DNA from: Phenylobacterium sp.
GTDB lineage: Bacteria; Pseudomonadota; Alphaproteobacteria; Caulobacterales; Caulobacteraceae
Length of the DNA: 64,000 nucleotides
Direction: 5' to 3'
Assembly: GCF_016124325.1 (NCBI RefSeq)
Contig: NZ_WGNY01000028.1
Span: forward strand, 1 to 64,000
Shown: positions 61,892-64,000 of the stretch, piece by piece
Layout: the number at the start of each line of letters is the position of its first letter
Position numbering within the stretch: position 1 is the first letter of the stretch
Program-made: the position numbers and the translations under genes
Notes under the pieces: model-generated
The model's input: only the letters and a program-made list of their open reading frames with translations
Told to the model about the DNA's origin: nothing
Databases searched by the model: none

Positions 61892-64000
61892 TCAGTCCGC
61901 CGGACCGAACCCGCCGCCCCCGGGGGTCTCGATCTCGATGGCGTCGCCAGGCTGGACCGTAACGGAGAAACAGCCGGACAGTTCACTAGCCGCGCCCGAG
62001 GCCGCGATCAAACGCTGGCGGCCGGGGCGGCCGTCGCCGCCGCCCGCCAACCCCGGCGGCGCGTGATCGCGGCGCGAGGAAAGCAGGGCCGCCTCCATCG
62101 GGGCGAGGAACCGGATGCGCCGCCGCACGCCGTCGCCGCCGCGGTGCGCGCCATCGCCGCCCGAACCCTGGCGCACGCCGAACGTCTCCACCCGCACGGG
62201 GAAACGCCGCTCCAGGATCTCCGGATCGGTCAGCCGCGAGTTGGTCATATGGGTGTGGACCGCGCTGGCCCCGTCCGCGGTCGCCGTGGCGCCCGCGCCG
62301 CCGCAGATGGTCTCGTAGTACTGCCGCTGGTCGTCGCCGAAGGTGAAGTTGTTCATCGTGCCCTGGGCCGCGGCCATCACGCCCAGCGCCGCGTAGAGCG
62401 CGTCGACCACGTGCTGGCTGGTCTCGACGTTTCCGGCGACCACGGCGGCCGGCGGGCGCGGGTCCAGCATCGAGCCCTCGCGCGTGAGGATCTTCAGCGG
62501 CTCCAGGCAGCCGGCGTTCAGCGGGATATCGTCGTCCACCAGGGTGCGGAAGACATAGAGCGCCGCAGCGTCCACGATCGCCGACGGGGCGTTGAAGTTG
62601 GAGCCGAGCTGGTCGGCCGAGCCGGTGAAGTCCAGCACCGCCTCGCGGGCCGCCGCGTCGACGGTCGTACGCACCGCGATCTCGCCGCCGCCGTCCATGG
62701 GCATGCGCGCCGCGCCGTCCGACAGCCGCCCCACCGCGCGCCGCACCGCCTCGGCCGCGTTCTCCTGCACGAAGCCCATGTAGCGGGCCACGGCGTCGGC
62801 CCCGTAGGCGCGGATCATCTCCGATACGGCGCCGGCGCCGGCCTGGCAGGCGGCGACCTGGGCCTTGAGGTCGGCGATGTTGCGGTCGGGGGCCCGCGCC
62901 GGCCACTGGCCCGACGCCAGGGCCGCGCGGGTCTCGGCGTCGAGGAAGCGGCCGTCGCGCATGATCGGCAGGGCGTCCAGCAGCACGCCTTCCTCGTCGA
63001 TGGTGTGCGAGAACGGCGGCATGGAGCCGGGCTGAATCCCGCCCACGTCGGCGTGGTGGCCGCGGGCGGCGACGTAGAACGCCGGTTGCTCCTCCCCTGA
63101 AGGGGACACTTCGGGGGAGGTGGCGCGTAGCGCCGGAGGGGGCGTTTGGCGGCTTTGCGCCCCCTCCGTCTCGCGGCTAGCGCCGCGATCCACCTCCCCC
63201 GTCGTCTTCGCGACAGGGGAGGAGCTGGCCATGAACACCGGCATCACCACGGTGATGTCGGGCAGGTGGGTGCCGCCGGCGTAGGGGTTGTTCAGCGCGA
63301 AGGCCTGGCCCGGCTTCAGGTCGGGATGCCGGTCGCGCACCGCCCGGACGCTGGCGCCCATCGAGCCCAGGTGCACCGGCATGTGCGGGGCGTTGGCCAC
63401 CAGCCCGCCATCGGCGTCGAAAAGCGCGCAGGAGAAGTCGAGCCGTTCCTTGATGTTCACCGAGTGCGCCGTGCGCTCCAGCGCCGCGCCCATGGCCTCG
63501 GCCACGCCCATGAAGCGGCGGTTGAACAGCTCCAGGGTCACCGGGTCGGGCCGGTCGAGGGCGATCGCCTTGCGCGTCTCGCCGCCCACACGTGAGAGGC
63601 GGATCAGGCCGTCGGCGTCGGCGCGGGCCCGCCAGCCGGGCAGCACCGCGATCTGGGTGTCGGCGCGCACGACCAGCGCCGGGCCGTCGACGCGCGCGAG
63701 CGCGTCCGCCGCCACGATGGGCGCATCATGCCAGGCGCTGGCGGCGAACATCCTCACCTGCTCGTCCCGACCGAGGCCGAGGGCGTCGGTGGCCCCTGGA
63801 TCGGATGCGACCCGGTCTTCGCCCTGGTCGGTCGCGCGGGCGACCGCCTCGGCCTCCACGGCCGCGATCAGGATCGTGCGTTCGGGCTCGACGAAGCCGA
63901 ACAGCCGCTGGTGGGCCGCCTCGAAGTCGGCCTTGGCGCGGCCCGTGTCGGCCAGGACGACAGGCAATTCGGCGTCGGCCCCATCGTAGCGGAGCCGCAG
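61892..64000 (-). CDS. 5-Oxoprolinase / hydantoinase HyuA-HyuB fusion, C-terminal part
   Basis: The frame is open to the window edge, so the 5' end is missing. The visible ~700 residues begin with the end of the HyuA-type ATPase half ([31 protein letters not shown]). The complete HyuB half follows: [83 protein letters not shown], and a C-terminus in [15 protein letters not shown]. The fusion is normal for ATP-dependent 5-oxoprolinases, which open pyroglutamate or hydantoin rings. The odd point is a 46-codon insert between VVMPVFMA and [11 protein letters not shown], encoded by the palindromic element at 63088-63225. Confidence 0.92.
63088..63225. repeat. 138-bp nested palindromic element inside a coding region
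   Basis: Outer arms GCTCCTCCCCTG (63088-63099) and CAGGGGAGGAGC (63214-63225); middle arms CGGGGGAGGTGG (63112-63123) and CCACCTCCCCCG (63190-63201); inner arms GGAGGGGGCG (63135-63144) and CGCCCCCTCC (63158-63167) around a 13-base loop. All are perfect pairs. Two small hairpins lie between (GGCGC-GTA-GCGCC and GCGGC-TAGC-GCCGC). Elements of this kind are common between genes in Caulobacteraceae. 138 is a multiple of three and no stop arises in the oxoprolinase frame. Confidence 0.85.

Follow-up and report, generated by a model that had tools for sequence, protein, structure and literature searches.

The window, by which we mean the whole 64-kb stretch of DNA analysed, ends inside a fused HyuA-HyuB gene read on the minus strand. 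The open frame of this gene comprises 1235 aa without stops, extends past the window edge and encodes a product with Hydant_A_N, Hydantoinase_A and Hydantoinase_B domains. The initial annotation had called it a 5-oxoprolinase gene, and the domains support its assignment to the hydantoinase/oxoprolinase family. At the level of substrate, however, no NCBIfam model reached its cut-off with the HyuA-HyuB protein, the best being that of caprolactamase alpha (332.9 bits vs 1000), so that "5-oxoprolinase" should be read as a family label and not as an established activity. A loop of the HyuB part (loop 1) holds a palindromic element, and a linker (loop 2) joins HyuA and HyuB:

61892..64000, minus strand: HyuB part of the fused HyuA-HyuB gene (stop codon 61892-61894)
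63074..63232, minus strand: loop 1 of HyuB, 53 aa here, holding the element
63088..63225, no strand assigned: palindromic element of 138 bp (46 codons), two half-units tail to tail
63088..63120, no strand assigned: left terminal hairpin GCTCCTCCCC...GGGGGAGG, from arm pairing
63134..63168, no strand assigned: inner hairpin CGGAGGGGGCG/CGCCCCCTCCG, from arm pairing
63193..63225, no strand assigned: right terminal hairpin, whose 29-mer is 63193-63221 of the minus strand
63755..63844, minus strand: HyuA-HyuB linker (loop 2), 30 aa here

The outer arms of the element (63088-63099 and 63214-63225) and its middle arms (63112-63123 and 63190-63201) are perfectly complementary over 12 bp each, as first described; the inner arms (63134-63144 and 63158-63168) pair perfectly over 11 bp, and not over the 10 bp originally given. 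Complementarity between the two 46-nt halves is 76%. Folded as single-stranded DNA, the element reached -56.1 kcal/mol vs -32.6 (sd 2.9) for 200 dinucleotide shuffles, none of which (0/200) folded as low (z = -8.0). In the gene it is in frame on the minus strand, reading 45 residues plus boundary residues, and three of its six reading frames are stop-free. Arm pairing, folding and reading frame thus confirmed the earlier description of a nested, in-frame palindrome of 138 bp. Its termini are GCTCC...GGAGC, and the 138 bp contain no GANTC site. The 64-kb window holds no further hairpin of this type, and a comparison of four loci with Rfam at the gathering score gave no match; below threshold, two microRNA-type matches were found around the element in the window. 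In the loop sequences of this gene and of the genus no target-site duplication was recognised at the element, and what is left of loop 1 once the element is subtracted measures 7 aa against 11 in near relatives, a shortfall of about 4 aa, so that the insertion is not textbook-clean.

The proposal that the element is a dispersed repeat, and not unique to this gene, held in the genome from which the window derives (G000; 4.9 Mb in 58 contigs), where dozens of related copies were present. At E <= 0.01 the element matched 52 times, a number in which some sites count more than once, through their two strands or through fragments, and the pattern CTCCCCN{2,24}GGGGAGSTGN had 57 matches (30 and 27 per strand) vs 3 for the reversed control. 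The stretches around the pattern matches yielded 47 hairpin sites, a few of which are other palindromes (those at C6:136467 and C11:8791 resemble family 2 of the linker, described below). Most sites show half-units, made of a terminal hairpin and an inner arm ending in GGAGGGGG or TGAGGGGG, and these occur alone, tail to tail, as in the HyuB copy, or head to head. In type A, of about 110 bp, a GAGCTGTC...GACTGAGGGGG half is paired with a GAGGTGG...CGGAGGGGG half, and the type B subtype, to which the HyuB copy belongs, carries GAGGTGG/GGAGGGGGCG. The 29-mer of the right hairpin is repeated exactly at two other sites of the genome (C4:56152 and C22:5500) and, at 0-1 mismatch, was detected in 17 of 101 genomes of the genus, G000 included, with none for the reversed control. 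The search of this genome and its relatives recovered copies of the repeat, among them these exact 29-mers and the intragenic, in-frame copies described below.

Named relatives point to Phenylobacterium or close Caulobacteraceae as the group to which G000 belongs. Relatives of the HyuA-HyuB gene mostly show an empty site. The HyuB fragment matched in 91 of the 101 genomes sampled, which are mostly drafts, and loop 1 could be read in 87 loci, G062, G067, G087 and G117 being left out. The loop measures 9-16 aa in 77 of these loci and 18-55 aa in the other ten (G024 55, G000 53, G031 51, G085 50, G011 48, G121 30, G013 28, G082 24, G123 24 and G066 18). Together with two solved hydantoinase chains, in which 6 and 4 residues separate the aligned blocks vs about 50 in the G000 protein, these lengths bear out, for most of the homologues read, the earlier expectation that the 46 residues would be absent. 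All 87 loops, the ten long ones included, keep the frame and are free of stops, and the long loops differ from one another in sequence. An exact CTCCCC...GGGGAG hairpin occurs in 7/10 long loops and in 0/77 short ones; the long loops of G066, G121 and G123, which have no exact hairpin, contain by eye diverged or partial palindromes. A GANTC site occurs in the long loops of G011, G024 and G085. In the alignment of the 87 frames every rare insertion of at least 13 aa falls in loop 1, in two neighbouring runs, except for the frameshifted end of G011; this filter does not flag the linker, which is too commonly variable, and the start of HyuA is covered by only about 31 rows.

The ten carriers are scattered over the gene tree, a quick IQ-TREE protein tree from which most of loop 1 was excluded, in which the linker columns were kept and the frameshifted G011 was cut to its matching part. 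They required ten changes, at least six of them forced by starred branches, and because shuffled carrier labels need 9.6 changes on average, the scatter is at the level of chance. Constraining the carriers to one clade cost 750 log-likelihood units (p-AU 8.6e-11). The ten changes and the rejection of a single clade indicate that loop 1 was struck repeatedly. The single insertion first noted thus stands, yet its scope had been understated, since the same loop was struck in other species and other genes carry copies as well.

Among 80 named loci of distant homologues, from many phyla, loop 1 measured 8-18 aa in 62 of the 68 that could be read and at least 22 aa in the remaining six (L068 38, L078 64, L082 22, L102 31, L105 28 and L127 34 aa). 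The long loops belong to cyanobacteria, a Thiosymbion MAG, relatives of Methanosarcina, a euryarchaeal MAG and Ramlibacter, and some are repeat-like (SPSPRLPVSPSPHLP, CPMAHAQCPMP), which suggests that in distant taxa this loop may collect other types of repeat. Long loops of unrelated DNA in distant genera had been named as evidence against an insertion; they do exist, in a minority of 6/68, and they point to a loop that is permissive across the family and do not refute the insertion. Such permissiveness agrees with an insertion on which selection for tolerance then acted.

Four more copies of the element were found in frame within G000 genes, each with a spanning open frame, a coding GC pattern on both sides (by eye) and domain matches:

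C4:56112: in-frame copy in a ligase-associated DEXH (Lhr-type) helicase
C37:54330: in-frame copy in an asparagine synthase
C40:28195: in-frame copy in the error-prone polymerase DnaE2
contig ends C20 and C22, counted once: in-frame copy in PDH-E2, in the linker between the lipoyl and E3-binding domains

The peptides encoded by copies in different genes use different frames of the element. The two PDH-E2 contig ends (L030, C20:1-1997, and C22:63816-65805) carry a near-identical E2-like sequence with the same linker palindrome; they may stem from paralogous lipoyl proteins or from an assembly that broke at the repeat.

DnaE2 was matched in 54 of 60 genomes and its insert in G000 alone; elsewhere the flanks adjoin, by eye at most about 20 nt apart among the pairs listed. 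In a solved DnaE chain this place is occupied by 6 residues, compared with 63 in the G000 protein, although the second aligned block is weak (E 0.13). The Lhr-type helicase was matched in 57/60 genomes, in 12 of them through the insert and in a 13th (G032) in part, the own genome counted. By eye, 12 of the 13 inserts read are palindromes (of type A, type B or a family-3-like kind) and that of G015 is of other make-up, with CTCCGCG repeats instead of a CTCCCC palindrome in the same helicase loop (L286). Between the aligned blocks, positions 219 to 336 of the query stood against 245 to 353 of the PDB chain. In G073 the Lhr-type gene (L294 and L309, at the starts of C18 and C28) seems to be divided over two contig ends close to the loop that takes the insert, the pattern that would result if a repeat had broken the assembly. 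For asparagine synthase, with matches in 55/60 genomes, the alignment ran through the insert in 18, the own genome counted; the 15 inserts read (those of G011, G013 and G064 were left out) include by eye type B, family 2, family 4 and family 5-like palindromes, some of them decayed. Because a query bearing the insert favours similar, in-frame ones, inserts that are short, different or frame-breaking may be absent from these counts. Inserts in the helicase and in asparagine synthase did not co-occur significantly (odds ratio 4.1, Fisher p = 0.076, 51 genomes).

The linker between HyuA and HyuB is a second place of this kind. Including about 13 conserved residues, the segment measures 35-70 aa in 82 untruncated rows, and a recognised palindrome family was assigned, with regular expressions written post hoc, in 43 of 84 readable loci of the genus; 41 were scored as none, and three more rows are cut off or have unknown bases. 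Family 4, with peptides like HPREGGDPG...LGPRLRGDE, was the most frequent (17 loci), followed by family 1 (CCTTCTCCC...GATGAGGGG, 9 loci), family 2 (CCCTCCCC...GGGTGGGGA, 8 loci), family 3 (CTCTCCCC...GGGTGAGGGG, 7 loci) and family 5 (2 loci). Some labels are to be read with care: G004 was scored as family 1 and by eye belongs to family 3, and of the truncated rows G112 and G033 the former was scored as family 2 and by eye belongs to family 5. The long linkers of G023, G029, G063 and G095 (L049, L047, L154 and L171), counted as none, include some with further inverted repeats. Outside the HyuA-HyuB gene, family-2-type palindromes (CCCTCCCC...GGGGAGGG, with inner arms GGGTGGGG) lie at C6:136467 and C11:8791 of G000. 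The linker of the G000 gene itself, a row scored as none, is perhaps a decayed family-4 remnant, judging from GGGACGAGC at 63760-63768.

On the tree the linker family label required 27 changes, and carrier against none 17. When labelled rows only were considered there were 12 changes vs 23.1 in shuffles, which implies that the linker families are clustered and that some copies are old. G024 carries family 4 and its nearest rows, G108 and G109 (first tree, starred), carry family 3, which suggests a turnover of families at one linker site.

We consider it very probable that the HyuB insert derives from a palindromic repeat, dispersed and non-autonomous, one copy of which entered a permissive loop of this hydantoinase/oxoprolinase-family enzyme in frame and was kept as translated, tolerated sequence. 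The element is GC-rich and stop-poor, with half of its frames open, so that copies with a length divisible by three can be translated through. A repeat copy would enter the loop in frame, the loop would tolerate the extra hydrophilic residues, and the insert would then be carried along in the protein. Selection would purge insertions that break the frame or are otherwise disruptive, and the survivors would accumulate at a small number of recurring loops and linkers. Such insertion would have happened many times across the genus, by related and by unrelated palindrome families, and the surviving copies would mark loops where it does little harm. The insert is presumably translated and neutral or nearly so, being maintained by tolerance rather than benefit. 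Its movement might depend on a factor acting in trans or on a hairpin-dependent copying event. A RAYT as the mover is not supported in G000: the Y1_Tnp domain (PF01797) had no match in 9 of the 13 genomes searched, this one included; it was matched in G013, G031, G065 and G121, and G013, G031 and G121 are three of the ten loop carriers.

It is improbable that the insert is instead adaptive and provides a useful new enzyme surface that might serve, for instance, assembly or regulation. The same loop was reused, and the clustering of the linker families means that some copies persisted; yet the sequences, lengths and families vary between species, for which tolerance is the simpler explanation.

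Quite improbable, too, is one ancestral insertion in the genus, followed by loss from the majority of species and by divergence or gene conversion of the copies that remain. The inserts of G024 and G085 share subtype and frame, and that pair could have one origin. Moreover, parsimony is blind to gain vs loss, so that three changes on the tree may represent one gain and two losses. A single gain demands, however, many precise, frame-keeping losses, and it conflicts with as many changes as carriers, six or more of them forced, and with the rejection of one carrier clade on the quick tree.

The byp hairpins of yeast mitochondria offer a model for a hairpin that is not translated, either through ribosome bypass or through RNA processing. 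The strong fold of the HyuB element within coding sequence would suit such a model, which we regard as very unlikely here: bypass or excision needs no kept frame, yet each of the 87 HyuB loops is in frame and stop-free, and the inserts read in the Lhr-type helicase and asparagine synthase also keep the frame, even if the searches for these favour in-frame cases. As for a hypervariable, low-complexity protein loop resembling a repeat by chance, the six long distant loops with other sequences speak for it, and it is contradicted, to the point of being negligible, by a DNA that is a structured palindrome with copies elsewhere in the genome.

Beyond the tolerated insertion of a repeat copy, we tentatively raise a stronger proposal, which is possible and rather unlikely: that, across the genus, palindromes of multiple families keep entering particular, fixed protein loops and that one family can take the place of another, as in the linker of G024, hinting at hairpin-directed insertion or exchange beyond random insertion plus selection. 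If this were true, the loops would offer conserved enzymes a renewable supply of novel peptides for linkers and surfaces.

Several known systems resemble the one described here. The Rickettsia palindromic elements (RPEs) are described as palindromes of about 105-146 bp that fall into several families and sit in frame within conserved protein-coding genes of an alphaproteobacterium (PMC2229807, PMC10969869), and the HyuB element is likewise a palindrome placed in frame in protein genes. The likeness is one of description and not of compared sequences. In contrast to the RPEs, the hosts here are free-living and of the Caulobacteraceae type, and the same loop was struck independently in many species by several families. 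The initial annotation had cited Rickettsia as the precedent, which is correct as far as RPEs are coding palindromes; it omitted the intragenic GTAG/CGTC REPs, dispersed hairpin repeats that are reported inside ORFs of several other bacteria, including DnaE2 and repair genes, and at about the same site in recB of two Xanthomonas species (PMC3733652). The HyuB element lacks a GTAG or CGTC end tetranucleotide, a RAYT gene would be expected with GTAG-type REPs whereas G000 has no Y1_Tnp match, and the recurrence found here covers one genus and several enzymes.

The CcrM-associated intergenic repeats (CIRs) of Caulobacter, also found in other alphaproteobacteria, are described as having about 110 bp with two inverted-repeat arms and a linker (PMC2229807), and some G000 copies are similar in layout and length. 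CIRs are tied to GANTC, which the HyuB element lacks although three of the ten long loops contain it, and they are described as strictly intergenic (PMC10969869), whereas the HyuB copy is intragenic; as with the RPEs, the comparison is one of descriptions. The element also shares with MITEs its short length, dispersal, non-autonomous nature and terminal inverted repeats. Of the duplication and transposase associated with MITEs, no target-site duplication was recognised, and Y1_Tnp was the only transposase domain searched. Coding palindromes in nematomorph mitochondria represent another case (PMC6649704). Among the listed titles and opening parts of abstracts of openly licensed papers, none described palindromes inserted in frame in genes of Phenylobacterium or Caulobacteraceae.

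Protein-coding palindromes were thus already known from RPEs and intragenic REPs; what looks new is the scale, with several families and enzymes and the same loops within one free-living genus, and the recurrence and family turnover are the unusual part of the case. Such repeats may add new protein segments in free-living bacteria. Independent strikes on one loop, together with relatives that retain the empty site, constitute natural replicates that make it testable how a mobile palindrome enters genes, at which loops an additional 20-50 residues are tolerated and whether inserts ever become useful. For annotation, our results are a warning that a Ser/Pro/Gly-rich segment that looks out of place in a protein of the Phenylobacterium-type group can be repeat DNA.
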